DNA from: Anaerostipes hominis (ex Lee et al. 2021)
GTDB taxonomy: Bacteria > Bacillota > Clostridia > Lachnospirales > Lachnospiraceae
NCBI RefSeq assembly: GCF_002270485.1
Contig: NZ_NQOG01000006.1
Coordinates: 1-64,000, forward strand
Direction: 5' to 3'
Length of the DNA: 64,000 nt
Made by a program: the position numbers and the translations under genes. The notes beneath the pieces are model-generated. The model was not told the DNA's origin and searched no databases. It saw only the letters and a program-made list of their open reading frames with translations. Shown here in pieces: positions 34,394-58,652 of this stretch (position 1 is its first letter; each line of letters starts with the position of its first letter).

Positions 34394-36925
34394 ATGAAAC
34401 AAAAATTTGATGTGACAGGCATGACATGCAGCGCATGCAGTGCCCATGTAGATAAAAGTGTCCGAAAATTAGATGGTGTCGCTGAAGTTAATGTAAATCT
34501 GCTCCAAAACACCATGACCGTGGAGTATGATGAGTCAGAAGTAAACGATGATCAGATTATCCGAGCTGTCATCGATGGAGGCTACGGTGCCTTTGTCCAT
34601 GATAAGCAAGAGGAAGCAGGCAGGAACCGGGATATTGGCGTAGACGATGAGATCACCGGCATGAAGAGAAGACTTTGGGTATCTATCCTGTTTATGATAC
34701 CGCTCATGTACATTTCCATGGGACATATGGTGAATCTTCCGCTTCCATTTTTTCTGAGCGGAACCCACAATGCGGTTTCTTTCGGGCTGACCCAGATGCT
34801 GCTGGTTCTCCCGGTCATGTACATTAACCGGAAGTTTTATCAGGTGGGATTTAAGACCTTATTTAAGGGCTCTCCGAATATGGATTCCCTGATCGCCATC
34901 GGGTCCGGCGCCGCCTTTGTCTATGGAGTATTTGCCATTTACCGCATGGGATACGGCCTCGGTGTGCAGAATCTTCAGCTGGTACATCAGTACCACATGG
35001 ATTTATATTTTGAATCTGCATCGATGATCCTGACACTGATCACGGTCGGAAAATATCTGGAGGCCAGGTCCAAAGGGAAGACTTCTGAGGCTATCAGCAA
35101 ACTCTTAGATCTGGCTCCGAAGACCGCCACCGTAGAACGGGGCGGGGAAGAGATTGAGATCCCTGTGGAGGAGCTGAATGAGGGAGATACGGTGATAGTG
35201 CGCCCCGGAGCCAGCATTCCGGTTGACGGAGTCATCCTTGAAGGCATGACTTCCGTGGATGAGAGCGCTCTGACCGGGGAAAGCATCCCTGTGGAGAAAT
35301 CCTCCGGAGATAAAGTCATCAGCGCATCCATTAATAAAGGGGGATTTATTAAATTCAGGGCTACAAAGGTAGGGGATGATACGACGCTTGCCCAGATCAT
35401 ACAGCTGGTGGAAGATGCATCCGGTTCCAAAGCCCCGATCGCAAAGCTTGCAGATAAAATTGCCGGCATTTTCGTTCCCGTTGTTATTGTCATTGCCCTG
35501 GCTTCCGGGATAGTATGGCTCCTTTCCGGGCAGACATTTGAGTTCGCACTGTCCACGGCTATTGCCGTCCTGGTCATTTCCTGCCCGTGTGCACTTGGTC
35601 TTGCCACACCGACGGCAATCATGGTCGGAACTGGAAAAGGCGCGGAAAACGGCATCCTGATCAAGTCTGCGGAGAGTCTTGAGACGGCACATGAGATAAA
35701 AACCGTCGTTTTGGACAAGACCGGAACTGTCACGGAAGGACGGCCACAGGTGACGGACATCGTAACCTCCGGCGGCATTGAAGAAAAAGAACTGGTCAAG
35801 CTTGCCGCCAGTATGGAGAAACCTTCGGAGCATCCTCTGGCGGATGCCATTGTCTTCTATGGCGAAGAGATCAATGCCGGCTTCTGTGAGGTATCCGGAT
35901 TTGAGTCTGTGCCAGGAGAAGGGATCGAGGGTTCCATAGAAGGTGATAGGGTATATGCCGGCAACCTCAAAATGATGGAACGGATTGGAGTTTCTCTTGG
36001 AGACCTGGAAGAAAAAAGTACTGTTTTTGCCTCACAGGGCAAGACACCTCTTTTCTTTGCAAAAGAGGGCAGACTGCTTGGGCTGATCTCTGTAGCCGAT
36101 GTGGTAAAACCGACCAGCAGACAGGCCATTCAGGAATTTGAGAAGATGGACATCGAAGTGGTCATGCTGACCGGAGATAACAAAAAAACAGCAGCGGCAA
36201 TCCAAAAACAGCTGGGCATCAGACGGGTGATCGCAGAAGTGCTTCCACAGGACAAAGAGGCCAAGATCCGGGAAATTCAGGAGGAAGGCAAGAAAGTGGC
36301 CATGATCGGGGACGGCATCAATGATGCTCCGGCCCTTGCCAGAGCCGATGTGGGAATTGCCATAGGAGCCGGCACCGATATTGCCATCGAATCCGCAGAT
36401 ATCGTCCTGATGAAGAGTGATCTGCTGGACGGAGTGGCGGCAGTCCAGCTCAGCAAAGCGGTGATCAAAAACATCAAAGAAAATCTCTTCTGGGCCTTTT
36501 TCTATAATGTGATCGGAATTCCCCTGGCCGCCGGGTGTCTGTATCCGTTTTTCGGATTAAAGCTTAATCCTATGTTCGGTGCCGCAGCCATGAGTTTAAG
36601 TTCTGTATTTGTCGTGAGCAATGCCCTGCGCCTGAAGTTTTTCCGGCCAGACTTTATAAGAAACAAAGAAACGCCGGTAAGAGTAAATGAGCCGGTCCAA
36701 AGAGAGGAGGAAACAAACATGAAAAAGACGATCTCGATTGAAGGAATGATGTGTAAGCACTGTGTAAAACACGTGACAGATGCACTCAATAAGCTGGACG
36801 GGGTGGCCGCAGAGGTCAGCCTTTCAAATAAAAGCGCCGTTGTGAACTTAGAAAAAGAGGTCAGCGACGAATCACTGAAACAGGCAGTAGAAGATGCAGG
36901 CTATCAAGTGACCGGTATTCAGTAA
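34394..36925 (+). CDS. copA: Copper-exporting P1B-type ATPase with a C-terminal CopZ-like domain
   Basis: An 843-residue membrane ATPase that pumps Cu(I) out of the cell. N-terminal HMA domain with GMTCSACS (CxxC at residues 12-15), membrane segments, the CPC metal site ISCPCALGLATPTA, phosphorylation motif DKTGTVTEG, and GDGINDAPALARADVGIA. After the last membrane helices it carries a second HMA domain, residues about 776-843, with EGMMCKHC. This C-terminal copy has its own AGAGGAGG and ATG in frame, so it may also be made as a free CopZ chaperone. Start at 34394 after AAGGAGG. Confidence 0.95.
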   Translation: MKQKFDVTGMTCSACSAHVDKSVRKLDGVAEVNVNLLQNTMTVEYDESEVNDDQIIRAVIDGGYGAFVHDKQEEAGRNRDIGVDDEITGMKRRLWVSILFMIPLMYISMGHMVNLPLPFFLSGTHNAVSFGLTQMLLVLPVMYINRKFYQVGFKTLFKGSPNMDSLIAIGSGAAFVYGVFAIYRMGYGLGVQNLQLVHQYHMDLYFESASMILTLITVGKYLEARSKGKTSEAISKLLDLAPKTATVERGGEEIEIPVEELNEGDTVIVRPGASIPVDGVILEGMTSVDESALTGESIPVEKSSGDKVISASINKGGFIKFRATKVGDDTTLAQIIQLVEDASGSKAPIAKLADKIAGIFVPVVIVIALASGIVWLLSGQTFEFALSTAIAVLVISCPCALGLATPTAIMVGTGKGAENGILIKSAESLETAHEIKTVVLDKTGTVTEGRPQVTDIVTSGGIEEKELVKLAASMEKPSEHPLADAIVFYGEEINAGFCEVSGFESVPGEGIEGSIEGDRVYAGNLKMMERIGVSLGDLEEKSTVFASQGKTPLFFAKEGRLLGLISVADVVKPTSRQAIQEFEKMDIEVVMLTGDNKKTAAAIQKQLGIRRVIAEVLPQDKEAKIREIQEEGKKVAMIGDGINDAPALARADVGIAIGAGTDIAIESADIVLMKSDLLDGVAAVQLSKAVIKNIKENLFWAFFYNVIGIPLAAGCLYPFFGLKLNPMFGAAAMSLSSVFVVSNALRLKFFRPDFIRNKETPVRVNEPVQREEETNMKKTISIEGMMCKHCVKHVTDALNKLDGVAAEVSLSNKSAVVNLEKEVSDESLKQAVEDAGYQVTGIQ
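36705..36925 (+). CDS. copZ: Nested CopZ-like copper chaperone frame (internal start within copA)
   Basis: AGGAGG (36705-36710) lies eight bases before an in-frame ATG at 36719. Starting there gives a 68-residue HMA protein: KKTISIEGMMCKHCVKHVTD with metal cysteines, ending at the copA stop. The length and fold equal a stand-alone CopZ. Seen: ribosome site, start and a complete domain. Inferred: that ribosomes use it and deliver both fused and free forms. The feature includes the ribosome site; the frame itself is 36719-36925. Confidence 0.55.
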
Positions 36926-36934
36926 GGAGGGGCC

Positions 36935-37198
36935 ATGCAGGCAGACAAGACTCAGATCACAAGACTTCTGAAGACCGCCAGGGGACAGATCGACGGGATC
37001 TTAAAAATGGTGGAAGACGACCGGTACTGTATGGATATCTCCAACCAGCTCATGTCTACGGAGGCCATTATACGAAAGACCAATAAAGAAATCTTACGGG
37101 CACATATGAAAGGCTGCATTGCCGATGCCCTGGCTGAAAACAAAGGCGATGAAAAAATTGATGAACTGGTAGAACTCATCGATAAGTTCGCCAAATAA
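36935..37198 (+). CDS. csoR: Copper-sensing repressor CsoR
   Basis: An 87-residue all-helical DUF156 repressor. The Cu(I) ligands Cys32, His57 and Cys61 (RYCMDI, RAHMKGC) have the exact spacing of CsoR, unlike FrmR- or RcnR-type relatives. It begins 9 bases after copA with AAGGAGG and should repress the whole operon through the operator at 34362. Confidence 0.95.
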   Translation: MQADKTQITRLLKTARGQIDGILKMVEDDRYCMDISNQLMSTEAIIRKTNKEILRAHMKGCIADALAENKGDEKIDELVELIDKFAK

Positions 37199-37273
37199 AA
37201 TAAGTTTTTCTTCATTGTCTTCAGTCGGCTCTGGAAAGGCCTCCTTCCGACAATTGAAAAAACTATCGTTGGA

Positions 37274-37480
37274 TCATTCCATTTGTTTGATGGGTATGAA
37301 ATACGGTGTGCCCTGTGGGTATACATTATCATTCCCCAACAGGCGTACTTTAAAATTTTCTTTTCCTAAATGCTCTTTCATCAAATTCATAGCCAATTCC
37401 ATTTGTGGGCTTATCCATTTATTTTTAGCTGAATATAAAAAGAATTCTATTTCATCAAGTTTCGTTTTAATTGGCAACAA
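37274..37480 (-). CDS. Possible small protein fragment reading into a repeat
   Basis: A 68-codon frame on the minus strand, starting MLPIKTKLDEIEFFLYSAKN. The first 50 residues look coding (balanced, amphipathic helices), while the last 15 come from a partial copy of the 61-bp repeat. I do not recognise the family. There is no good ribosome site in front of the ATG. It may be the end of a decayed gene whose original stop was replaced by the repeat. Confidence 0.3.
   Translation of the reverse strand: MLPIKTKLDEIEFFLYSAKNKWISPQMELAMNLMKEHLGKENFKVRLLGNDNVYPQGTPYFIPIKQME
37292..37324 (+). repeat. Partial copy (right half) of the 61-bp repeat
   Basis: 33 bases identical but for one change to the right half of the units at 37795 (GGGTATGAAATACGG then TGTGCCCTGTGGGTATAC). 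It contains the GGTGTGCCC/GGGTATACC hairpin of the repeat. Confidence 0.8.
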
Positions 37481-37509
37481 AGATTACAGATATAAAAGGG
37501 GTGTTTACA

Positions 37510-37538
37510 TTGACTTAAAAAAACAAATTTATTATAAT
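37510..37538 (+). promoter_or_regulatory. Promoter before the DUF1273 remnant
   Basis: TTGACT (37510-37515), 17 bases, TATAAT (37533-37538), about 45 bases before the TTG start of the broken YpsA-like gene. It has survived although the gene has not. Confidence 0.6.
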
Positions 37539-37581
37539 TAGATAATATAAAAAAATAAAACTATCGACTGGAGAAGTTAAA

Positions 37582-37765
37582 TTGGGAAGAAAGACCTGTT
37601 GTGTTACTGGTCACAGGGATATGCCAGGTGAAGGGATTAGTAGCATAAAGGGCTCTGCGTAAAGAAATGAACCAGTGTTTTCTGAATGCCTGTACCCGGA
37701 TGACAGTAATCCAGGAGGAAATTGACATCGTAACCGCTATATGGTCGAGGATTCAGACCGCGTAG
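37582..37765 (+). pseudogene. Truncated, frameshifted YpsA/DUF1273-like (SLOG fold) gene
   Basis: A TTG start behind CTGGAGAAG gives GRKTCCVTGHRDMPG, the conserved opening of DUF1273/YpsA proteins (CCVTGHR). The frame stops near 37660, but a second frame continues ALRKEMNQCFLNACTRM as in the next helix of the family, then ends at 37765. Normal members have about 180 residues. So only the first third remains, with one frameshift. Confidence 0.65.
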
Positions 37766-37794
37766 AGTGAAAGTGGAGTTGCAGGCAATTCTAT

Positions 37795-37976
37795 ACCTAA
37801 TCGCGCGGAGCGCGTCCACCCGAAGGGTATAAAATACGGTGTGCCCTGTGGGTATACCTAATCGCGCGGAGCGCGTCCACCCGAAGGGTATAAAATACGG
37901 TGTGCCCTGTGGGTATACCTTATCGTGCGAAGCACGTCCGCCCGAAGGGTATGAAACACAGGATGCCCTGCGGGTA
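37795..37976 (+). repeat. Three tandem copies of a 61-bp palindromic repeat
   Basis: Units begin at 37795, 37856 and 37917. The first two are identical; the third differs at several positions (for example GTGCGAAGCAC in place of CGCGGAGCGCG, a compensated change that keeps the hairpin). Each unit holds three small stem-loops: CGCG-gag-CGCG, ACCC-gaa-GGGT and GGTGTGCCC-tgt-GGGTATACC. Other copies are at 37292 (half), 38816 (full, inverted) and 58621 (degenerate half). No open frame is needed to explain it. Confidence 0.92.
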
Positions 37977-38046
37977 TGATATAATAAAACCTTTAAGAAT
38001 GAATATTATGTAAAAATGGCGAGGCGGAGTCATAGGCTGGAGGTCA

Positions 38047-38397
38047 ATGATGAAAAAATGGTATGACGAAGAATATGAATTTGAAATTGAGGTAACAGGG
38101 TTTCTTCGCGGCGATCACACAGAGCGATATTGCCGTAACGGAGAGGAAATCGGAGATAAATATACCTGTACATATGGTTGCCCTGTAAATGCAGACGGAC
38201 AAGGGATCTGTTCTAAAGTAATGACGATACTGTTCCCTGTTATGGAGGCAGTCAGAAGCGGCGGGGATTTAGAGAACATTGGCGGCAGCGGTAAGTACAG
38301 CAAGGATATCGTATGCCCGGACGGATGTGTGATGTTCCGACTGACAGCGAAAAAACTTGGAAATGAGAATTTCTTTAAGGGAAAGTTTTTTAATTAG
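38047..38397 (+). CDS. TIGR04076-like small protein
   Basis: A 116-residue soluble protein. The C-terminal half, MEAVRSGGDLENIGG ... CPDGCVMFRLTAKK, resembles the TIGR04076 family, and four to six Cys residues (CTYGCP, CSK, CPDGC) suggest metal binding. Two ATG codons stand in tandem at 38047 and 38050, with GGCTGGAGG a few bases upstream. It follows the tandem repeat array by about 70 bases. Function unknown. Confidence 0.65.
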   Translation: MMKKWYDEEYEFEIEVTGFLRGDHTERYCRNGEEIGDKYTCTYGCPVNADGQGICSKVMTILFPVMEAVRSGGDLENIGGSGKYSKDIVCPDGCVMFRLTAKKLGNENFFKGKFFN

Positions 38398-38496
38398 CTT
38401 TTCAGATTGGCAAAGCAAAGAGGTGAAGTGTTTCTGAAATGAATATGGAAACAAATTCTAAAATGCTTATGCTATTGAAAATGGTCCTGCTTATGG

Positions 38497-38960
38497 TTGT
38501 ATCCGAAAAGTAGAGATTCTGGTTTTTCCAACTCCTTTTTTAAAGGTGTATATTATTCTTACTATAATAGTTGCACTGTTGATGGCTTTGACCCCGGCTT
38601 TCGTTCATGGAACAATAAATATGTTTATGATGTAAATATTCAAATTGTAGGAGGTTCACTATGCTTGATAAAATACCGAAGAGGTGGAAAAACACTTTGC
38701 GCCCTATACGCAAGGGAGAACTGCATTGGCTTTATGGTAATCCTGGGAAAAGATGAGCGGGAAAAATTTGAAGCAGGCCGAAATGAGTATTCTGAGAGCG
38801 TCCGGAAAATCTATACCCACAGGGCACACCGTATTTTATACCCTTCGGGTGGACGCGCTCCGCGCGATAAGGTATGATGAAACAAAAACTTATCACGATG
38901 GGAAATGGCTGATATATGAACCTGTTGACACTTCATTGTTTGGGGATTTCATGCATTTTT
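38497..38960 (+). pseudogene. DUF3788-like gene split by a 61-bp repeat insertion
   Basis: Up to 38815 one frame reads GGSLCLIKYRRGGKTLCALY, CIGFMVILGKDEREKFEAGR and ESVRKIY. From 38877 a different frame goes on with DETKTYHDGKWLIYEPVD, which is the natural continuation of DUF3788 proteins. Between them lies exactly one 61-bp repeat unit; since 61 is not a multiple of three, it shifts the frame. The N-terminal part before about 38600 is poor, so the gene may have lost its start too. Confidence 0.7.
38816..38876 (-). repeat. Single full 61-bp repeat unit inserted in the DUF3788 gene
   Basis: Read on the minus strand this equals the unit at 37795-37855 except for one base (TTATCG for TAATCG, as in unit 3). 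It interrupts ...AAAATCTAT|GATGAAAC..., with TAT on both sides. The match of insert length to the tandem period is what shows the unit to be a discrete mobile piece. Confidence 0.88.
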
Positions 38961-39105
38961 TATATAAATATTGCCCCGGATGCGGTGGCGGTGAAGGAAA
39001 TCAGTCGTGTAAAATCGCATGGAGCATGATGGTGTAGAATACTGCTTCCAATGCGGAGCAGATGGAAAAGACAAAAATACTGGACATTCTTCTGTCCGGC
39101 TTTAA
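38961..39105 (+). pseudogene. DUF3795-like Cys-rich fragment
   Basis: The frame runs KYCPGCGGGEGNQSCKIA, then, after a frame change, MEHDGVEYCFQCG before it drifts into a short tail ending at 39105. CPGC ... SCKIA ... VEYCFQC is the cysteine pattern of DUF3795 proteins. It is directly fused to the DUF3788 remnant and cut short at the start of the next gene, so deletions have joined unrelated gene ends. Confidence 0.6.
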
Positions 39106-39307
39106 TGACGGGCGCAAAAAGCCCCTGTTTTGTACAGCAGTAACTCTTTTAGACTTGCAAGAGCTGCGGGAGGTACTTAGACAAATTGAGAACAGATCCG
39201 ATTTGGAAATGTTGACGCTCAAAGAAAAGAGTGCTTTTGCCGCGGGATTACTGCAGGCTGCGGCAGCAAAGAACAATATAAACTTGAAGCTACGCAAGAA
39301 GAAGTGA
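39062..39307 (+). CDS. 81-residue protein upstream of the IbrA-like gene
   Basis: A soluble, mostly helical protein: ILLSGFNDGRKKPLFCTAVT, LLDLQELREVLRQIENR, TLKEKSAFAAGLLQAAAAK and a very basic end KLRKKK. I do not recognise a named family, but the charge pattern suggests nucleic-acid or protein binding. GCGGAGCAG stands just before the ATG. It lies 110 bases before the IbrA-like gene in the same direction and has an intact frame in an area where most genes are broken, which suggests that it works with the next two genes. Confidence 0.6.
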   Translation: MEKTKILDILLSGFNDGRKKPLFCTAVTLLDLQELREVLRQIENRSDLEMLTLKEKSAFAAGLLQAAAAKNNINLKLRKKK

Positions 39308-39417
39308 TGATTTGAATACTGTAATCATTCAATAAAGCATTGAGAAAGGTAGAGAACCGAAGTGAGCTCCTGCAGAAAGAAATCTATCTTTAGAAGGAAC
39401 AGAAGAGAGGTGTCTTT

Positions 39418-40764
39418 TTGATAAGGGAGTATTTACATTTGAATGTTTATGATGCGTTTTTAGAACGAATGCATTTTCTTTTTGAAGAGTTTGGTAATAT
39501 CTATGTCTCTTTTTCCGGAGGCAAAGACAGTGGTTTGCTGCTCAATCTGGTTCTGGATTACCGGAATCAGCATTATCCGGAAAGAACCATTGGTGTATTT
39601 CATCAGGATTTTGAGGCGCAATATACGATGACGACAAAGTATGTAGAACGCACCTTTGAACGGATCAAGGACCAGGTGGAGTCTTATTGGGTTTGCCTGC
39701 CCATGGCAACCAGAACCGCGTTAAGCAGTTACGAGATGTATTGGTATCCATGGGATGACACAAAAAAGGATATCTGGATACGGGAGATGCCCCAAAAAGA
39801 ATACGTCATCAATCTGGAAAATAACATTATGACTACATACCGTTACCGGATGCATCAGGAAGATTTGGCAAAACAGTTCGGGCGATGGTACCGGAACGCC
39901 CATGACGGCGGAAAAACCGTATGCCTGCTTGGGATGCGGGCAGATGAATCTTTACAGCGGTATAGCGGATTTCTGAATAAAAAATACGGGTATAAAGATA
40001 CCTGCTGGATCAGCAAGCAATTTAAAGATGTCTGGTGTGCCTCCCCTTTATATGATTGGTCTACCAATGATGTCTGGCACGCCAACTATTTATTTGGTTA
40101 CGAGTATAACCGCCTGTATGATCTTTATTATATGGCTGGCCTGAAGCCCTCGCAAATGCGCGTGGCCTCCCCGTTCAACGACTATGCGAAGGACGCACTG
40201 AATCTATACCGCGTCATAGACCCGGAGATTTGGTGCAAGCTTGTGGGACGTGTACAGGGGGCAAATTTTGCTTCCATTTATGGAAAGACCAAAGCGATGG
40301 GCTACCGGAATATTTCTTTGCCGGAGGGATATACGTGGAAATCCTACACGAAGTTTTTATTGGAAACGTTGCCAAAAAGACTGCGGAATAACTATATAAA
40401 AAAATTCAATACATCTATCCAATTTTGGCATGAGACAGGAGGCGGGTTGGACGAGGAAGTGATTCAAGAGCTTCAGGAAAAGGGATATCAAATAAAACGA
40501 AACGGCGTCTCCAATTATACATTGAACAAAAAATCACGCATTGTATTTGTGGGGGAAATACCAGACCACACGGACGATATCAAATCCACAAAGGATATTC
40601 CCAGCTGGAAACGAATGTGTTACTGCATTTTGAAAAATGACCATATCTGCCGTTTCATGGGGTTTGGGATGACACGGCAGCAGCAGAAGCAGCTGGACAT
40701 TATACGCCGTAAATACAAAAGCATAGAGGAGTTTGAGTATGAAGTACAAAAGCCCAGTTTATAG
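39418..40764 (+). CDS. ibrA: IbrA-like PAPS-reductase-family protein (DUF3440)
   Basis: A 448-residue protein. The N-terminal PP-loop ATP-binding motif SFSGGKDSGLLLNLV (residues 30-45) belongs to the adenine-nucleotide alpha-hydrolase/PAPS reductase fold. The later RWYRNAHDGGKTVCLLGMRADES, CASPLYDWSTNDVW and the C-terminal DUF3440 part match IbrA, a protein that with IbrB controls immunoglobulin-binding genes in some E. coli. TTG start behind AGAGAGGTG. Similar PP-loop/ParB pairs occur on phages and islands. It overlaps the ParB-like gene by 26 bases. The molecular activity of IbrA is not established. Confidence 0.85.
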   Translation: MIREYLHLNVYDAFLERMHFLFEEFGNIYVSFSGGKDSGLLLNLVLDYRNQHYPERTIGVFHQDFEAQYTMTTKYVERTFERIKDQVESYWVCLPMATRTALSSYEMYWYPWDDTKKDIWIREMPQKEYVINLENNIMTTYRYRMHQEDLAKQFGRWYRNAHDGGKTVCLLGMRADESLQRYSGFLNKKYGYKDTCWISKQFKDVWCASPLYDWSTNDVWHANYLFGYEYNRLYDLYYMAGLKPSQMRVASPFNDYAKDALNLYRVIDPEIWCKLVGRVQGANFASIYGKTKAMGYRNISLPEGYTWKSYTKFLLETLPKRLRNNYIKKFNTSIQFWHETGGGLDEEVIQELQEKGYQIKRNGVSNYTLNKKSRIVFVGEIPDHTDDIKSTKDIPSWKRMCYCILKNDHICRFMGFGMTRQQQKQLDIIRRKYKSIEEFEYEVQKPSL

Positions 40765-58614: not shown

Positions 58615-58620
58615 TAGAAA

Positions 58621-58652
58621 CGGTATAAAATACGGTATGCCCCTGGGTGTAC
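58621..58652 (+). repeat. Degenerate half copy of the 61-bp repeat
   Basis: CGGTATAAAATACGG then TATGCCCCTGGGTGTAC resembles the right half of the units at 37.8 kb (GGGTATAAAATACGG, TGTGCCCTGTGGGTATAC) with a few changes. It sits 6 bases after ribF. Confidence 0.7.

Follow-up and report, generated by a model that had tools for sequence, protein, structure and literature searches.

A mobile 61-bp repeat in Anaerostipes hominis, probably a non-autonomous, MITE-like element that inserts at Y-AT-R

How does one short palindromic repeat come to lie both as a head-to-tail array and, a little further on, as a single reversed copy inside a gene, and what carries it there? The question is raised by the window analysed here (the whole 64,000-nucleotide stretch of the Anaerostipes hominis genome, G000; 3.33 Mb in 85 contigs). 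The explanation that we favour, and consider probable, is that the repeat (family A) belongs to the non-autonomous, MITE-like elements, comprises 59 bp (ACC...GGGT) and a repeated AT, inserts at Y-AT-R and is moved in trans.

Copies in the window and across the family

The features of the window that bear on this question are as follows.

37203..37262, + strand: repeat family D, end module; 26 bp ahead of the A fragment
37289..37323, + strand: A fragment, right half only
37792..37852, + strand: A unit 1 (TATACC...GTGGG), from the sequence and pairwise comparison
37802..37814, + strand: hairpin 1 of unit 1, CGCGC-GGA-GCGCG
37813..37818, - strand: -35-like TGGACG on the opposite strand of unit 1, a putative function
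37818..37828, + strand: hairpin 2 of unit 1, ACCC-GAA-GGGT
37843..37853, + strand: hairpin 3 of unit 1, GCCC-TGT-GGGT
37853..37913, + strand: A unit 2, identical to unit 1 (Tandem Repeats Finder, pairwise comparison)
37914..37977, + strand: A unit 3 with terminal TAT, 82% identity to unit 1
38662..38814, + strand: DUF3788, part ahead of the insert, matching PF12663 positions 50-95 (E 3.7e-10)
38812..38875, - strand: single reversed A unit in DUF3788 (61-bp insert plus shared end bases)
38873..38959, + strand: DUF3788, part beyond the insert, matching PF12663 positions 95-122 (E 1.8e-4; 21.9 bits, under the Pfam cut-off of 25)

The array that an earlier note on this DNA had placed at 37795 is the same array in a different phase; Tandem Repeats Finder puts it at 37792-37977, with 3.0 copies and 91% matches, and confirms the period of 61. 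Units 2 and 3 belong to different subfamilies, and the nearest copy of unit 3 is a unit at another locus, L018 (0.92). The reversed unit at 38812-38875 is 98% complementary to unit 1 and has TAT at either side. It does interrupt a DUF3788 gene, as the earlier note had proposed: both flanks match PF12663 and the two pieces meet at profile position 95, which places the insert between adjacent positions of a single gene. Profile positions 1-49 are unmatched in the split gene, and the matches listed when the genus was searched include no orthologue without the insert; the gene may thus have been a remnant even before the insertion. A weak match at 58619-58651 (E 0.061) was excluded from the A copies. 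A metal-sensitive repressor gene (PF02583) lies at 36935-37198, just upstream of the D and A fragments.

A lack of further copies, which the earlier note had named as refuting its reading, was not what we found. BLAST gave at least 33 matches in G000 (several of them inside one array; 40 of 48 candidates scored), which excludes a chance repeat, and a profile search of the window and 27 G000 loci yielded 53 unit hits, counting weak ones. The two complete congeners G009 and G008 hold at least 90 and at least 41 model matches, respectively (150 candidates scored in each). In a BLAST screen 8 of 61 genomes matched, G000 included; the ten congeners in it were divided into G009 with 16 matches, G008 with 14, three with one each and five with none. 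The model detected A in 27 of 250 family genomes, again including G000, and in 26 of 249 genera; it found two copies in G007, which was absent from the BLAST results. A strict-pattern scan of named genomes, which may omit the window's own or closely similar records, returned Sporofaciens musculi (Lachnospiraceae) alone, and the array was unmatched in phage and plasmid collections. A is a small mobile repeat found across many genera of one bacterial family, probably Lachnospiraceae. In the one viral-contig record that matched (L235, IMGVR_UViG_2910845507_000003), the A copy has the flank of the chromosomal site L016, and this part of the record is therefore likely to come from a bacterium.

Insertion sites, arrays and neighbouring repeat families

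We took 18 of the 27 G000 loci and sought the neighbour gene of each in G008 and G009. A match was obtained for 16 of the 18 (L017 and L018 gave none), and at 8 of the 16 aligned loci a relative has an empty site (L010, L020, L023, L024, L025, L026, L027 and L033); the remaining eight were occupied, rearranged or not alignable. The insert measures 366 bp, or 6 x 61, at L010, 61 bp each at L020, L024 and L026, 60 at L025 and 63 at L027, while those at L023 (57 bp) and L033 (39 bp) are truncated. One AT is kept and the flanks are colinear with the relative at L010 (G009), L024 (G008), L025 and L026 (both G009) and, with both relatives, at L027; the joint is less exact at L020, L023 and L033. The 61-bp unit inserts as a whole at Y-AT-R, with AT left on both sides and mostly between genes, and the tandem and single inserted forms that had been described from the window are both present.

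The junctions follow the pattern Y-AT-[ACC...GGGT]-AT-R. T or C precedes the AT in 58 of 59 left ends (ATA at the left end having been a search requirement), and at the right ends GG[GA]TA is followed by T in 34 of 36 and then by A or G in all 36. Of the 36 right ends, about 11 adjoin a B, C or D module, and L011 and L038 seem to represent a single site in two genomes. A palindromic Y-AT-R within A+T-rich flanks is thus the target. Because AT was a search requirement on the left and the T is missing from two right ends, strictly the base A alone is common to all the counted junctions, and an AT duplication therefore falls short of proof; the AT on both sides is either a 2-bp duplication or a 2-bp recombination core. 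The repeated TAT reported for the reversed copy does not hold as a target duplication, since the copies at L020, L024, L028 and window position 38812 have CA to the left but TA to the right and so share AT alone, within Y-AT-R. The terminal inverted repeat of A is 3-7 bp long; TATACC/GGTATA pairs in 89.7% of cells, with covariation no higher than in shuffles.

Under the favoured explanation, an enzyme acting in trans would cut with a 2-bp stagger, and arrays would lengthen mainly through local duplication, by slippage or unequal exchange, with a second copy sometimes entering the GGT-AT-ACC joint of a resident unit. In six of the eight G000 arrays with at least two full units, neighbours are at least 0.94 identical. 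The exceptions are L015 and window units 2 and 3, where adjacent units match each other at 0.82 and resemble units at other places more closely; at L010, too, one end unit is slightly nearer to a unit elsewhere (0.97 vs 0.95). Where flanks match by eye, unit number differs (three at L011 vs two at L038; six full units plus a part at L012, one plus a part at L063). From these comparisons, most arrays appear to have grown mostly by local duplication.

Hairpin modules of three further families, B, C and D, lie directly against A at these AT joints. In many cases two modules make up the ends of one element; of 12 such pairs in the G009 stretches, 7 are 183-185 bp long. An 800-kb portion of G009 contains 29 A, 11 B, 17 C and 15 D hits. 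At the L028 site, A is present in G000, and a B element occupies the same AT of the orthologous site in the G008 relative (L119). Together, these observations suggest that A, B, C and D share a target rule and perhaps an enzyme. The target rule, together with a junction common to other repeat families, makes the search for that enzyme concrete.

Two-hairpin elements of about 184 bp with mixed B/C/D ends (e.g., L051:1318-1501) were also observed in G008, G009 and G000; counting partial matches, and with 40 candidates scored in each genome, a B-C element gave at least 69 matches in G009, at least 60 in G008 and at least 42 in G000. In the loci searched, Rfam gave nothing at gathering score on these elements. 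No autonomous element with B/C/D ends was seen in the parts examined, and the one D...D pair, with 434 bp between its ends, contains no long ORF by eye.

In the searches that follow, no mobilising enzyme was found. When 329 ORFs near copies in G000, G008 and other genera were clustered (the G009 stretches being omitted), five clusters extended to three genomes, with no transposase by eye; nor was one recognised by eye when 800 kb of G009, the window and the G000 loci were examined for repeated ORFs (identity above 85%). No autonomous partner with the ends of A was seen in the parts examined. IS30 makes a 2-bp duplication, and its HTH_38 domain is over cut-off in 9 of 16 bearers, G008 not among them; a signal was also present in 14 of 14 controls, six of them over cut-off. 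It may be that the mobilising enzyme has been lost from some bearer genomes.

Copies beside gene starts

The left neighbour gene reads away from A at 65 of 90 arrays and at 23 of 32 held-out junctions. Within this genus, we compared left ends that face a gene start within 150 nt with the other left ends, the 150-nt limit having been chosen after the data were seen and the genes being simple ORF calls. In the discovery set (72 arrays, less 13 without an intact left end or left gene and 7 duplicates), TANNNT occurs on the gene strand in 23/30 vs 8/22 (p=0.005), TATAAT in 14/30 vs 0/22 (p=9e-5) and a -35-like hexamer (at least 4/6, at exactly 17 bp) in 28/30 vs 12/22 (p=0.002); as a background, 5% of Y-AT-R sites lying upstream of genes have the ATT triplet. 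In 40 further, held-out loci (49 arrays, less 11 without an intact left end or left gene and 6 duplicates), TANNNT was found in 12/15 vs 7/17 (p=0.036) and the -35-like hexamer in 10/15 vs 7/17 (p=0.18). The exact TATAAT rule was discarded, having failed in the held-out loci (3/15 vs 3/17). As 26 of the 40 held-out loci have at least 250 bp in common with a discovery locus (orthologous sites or repeats), the held-out test is not independent; the 10 independent held-out junctions give TANNNT in 4/5 vs 2/5 (p=0.52), and pooled with the discovery set 27/35 vs 10/27 (p=0.002).

A similar trend is seen at the right end (6/10 vs 7/30 in discovery, 4/6 vs 5/19 held out; combined 10/16 vs 12/49, p=0.013). 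The link may therefore stem from a preference for -10-like sites of any kind and not from a gain through the element's -35. At 5 of 10 promoter-side loci an element-free relative has a -10-like box in place (c219893, c193576 (TATAGT), c56540, L061 (TATAAA) and L060; at L060 the bases ahead of the box resemble an element end, maybe a remnant), three of the others being occupied and two not alignable. L026 provides a further element-free relative with a -10-like box, and the empty relatives at L027 have no clear -10. In other genera, TATAAT was found in 1 of 10. The window itself has no such arrangement, as neither copy faces a gene start: the TGGACG on the minus strand of unit 1 lies 17 bp from a half -10 (TAT) at the unit's left end, and the nearest gene on the left, 867 nt off, reads toward the array.

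Taken as sequence patterns, these counts are suggestive of many genus copies meeting a -10-like box at a nearby gene start. A share of the genus copies would then have entered promoter -10 boxes, where the element's terminal TAT would restore the -10 with the -35-like TGGACG 17 bp inside, the promoter being either kept or changed. A bolder version, which we regard as speculative and rather unlikely, would make A a promoter-splitting element that enters the -10 hexamer, rebuilds the box with its own end and swaps in its own -35, with array length tuning the region and one undescribed enzyme with a 2-bp AT core serving the unrelated families A, B, C and D within the same genomes. If this were so, an insertion would rewire a promoter without silencing the gene. 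Should the promoter link prove real, many rewired promoters would have been overlooked by gene-centred annotation.

In its working, the closest known system is the Correia element (CREE) of Neisseria, which like A is short, gene-free and present in many copies. According to the available text of PMC2649163, CREE insert at TA (in two cases CA) by a mobilising mechanism that had not been determined, and contain a -35 together with part of a -10, the rest of which is supplied by the target (the "Black promoter"); a promoter role for A may be proposed by analogy, although A shares none of the Correia sequence. The two differ in length (61 vs 69-157 bp) and in phylum, and A has head-to-tail arrays and three mini-hairpins. 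The ends of A also differ from the TATAG[CT]GGATTAA... search patterns for Correia elements given in that text.

Hairpins, other explanations and known repeat families

Of the alternatives to transposition in trans, the one that survives best, although we still think it unlikely, is that A moves as small circles by site-specific recombination. A serine or tyrosine recombinase would then use AT as its 2-bp core, and re-entry at GGT-AT-ACC would build the arrays. The presence of AT at both ends, in the target and at the tandem joint would suit such a recombinase, as would the modules B, C and D adjoining A at the same AT joints. However, the targets have little in common past Y-AT-R, and a double-stranded DNA circle of 61 bp is strained.

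The hairpins bear on two further explanations. Hairpin 1 reads CGCGC-GGA-GCGCG in window units 1-2 and CGTGC-GAA-GCACG in unit 3, so that one stem pair is altered on both sides. The earlier observation that the stem varies by compensated changes is clear over 50 aligned units, in which hairpin 1 is paired in 99.2% of cells and four of its five pairs have changes on both sides, and it extends across genera: among 51 matches, all but one from other genera, such changes are seen in 11 of 13 pairs, in an alignment that was fitted to the model. The covariation score of the three-hairpin structure lies above all 500 shuffles, a control inflated by relatedness. GNA triloops are present in 60/101 (hairpin 1), 77/101 (hairpin 2) and 2/101 (hairpin 3) unit rows. 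Selection on this structure, as the earlier note had it, is plausible; template-switch correction of short palindromes also yields compensated changes, and both accounts fit.

GNA triloops are very stable in single-stranded DNA, and 61 bp is a short substrate for a double-strand transposase. These properties, together with the three small hairpins, would suit an element of the REP/REPIN type that a Y1 (RAYT) transposase moves in single-stranded form, a partner that the earlier note had suggested looking for. Such an origin now appears very unlikely and is largely refuted by absence: Y1_Tnp (PF01797) is present in 9 of 16 bearers and was not found in the other seven, which include G000 and the complete G008. 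The targets of Y1 enzymes lie on one side, whereas that of A is symmetric. Lagging-strand insertion was likewise rejected, as G009 has a weak replication-strand bias (p=0.018) and G008 has none (p=1). REP and A are alike as small palindromic repeats of high copy number, but REP, in the available text of PMC3733652, is a palindrome of 20-40 bp with a GTAG or CGTC tag at one end, and A is a 61-bp unit with ends ACC...GGGT and neither tag.

It seems equally improbable that A is a selected regulatory RNA or operator whose empty sites are losses. The changes on both sides in 11 of 13 pairs (in the model-fitted alignment of 51 matches) would be expected of a conserved structure, and A is often placed before genes. 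Against this, one copy sits within a gene, both relatives are empty at L027 and L033, and at six of the eight empty sites the insert is 60-63 bp or 6 x 61 bp. Rfam gave no match at E<=1 in window positions 36800-39500 and 12 matches in 20 loci, none of them on an A unit. In G009, three CRISPR direct repeats (RF01316) lie downstream of an A array (L060:2107-2269). As for a mere minisatellite expanding by slippage, the near-identity of most array units and a unit number that varies at apparently the same sites (three at L011, two at L038) would suit it, but it is refuted as a full account by the dispersed single copies and empty sites that it leaves unexplained.

MITEs, in the available text of PMC2229807, are under 200 bp, encode no proteins and have many dispersed copies; A is 61 bp long, encodes no proteins, is dispersed in many copies and has empty sites at 8 of 16 aligned loci. 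Unlike MITEs it is not A+T-rich, its units being mostly 45-56% G+C (window and G009) vs 42-45% in the G009 stretches. A is best read as a new MITE-like family, analogous to the Correia elements and moved in trans, and marked by tandem whole units, the Y-AT-R target, three mini-hairpins and a composition that is not A+T-rich, and the suspicion that it might be undescribed stands, as we found no description in the open-access literature searched. RUP is linked to IS630-Spn1 and TA in the available text of PMC2229807. A comparable IS630-mobilised origin for A was rejected, with an IS630-type DDE_3 domain in just 1 of 16 bearers and Y-AT-R as the target. In Streptococcus pneumoniae, BOX, RUP and SPRITE cluster and insert into one another, and boxB number varies (available text of PMC3049150); BOX repeats its middle module, whereas A repeats the whole mobile unit.
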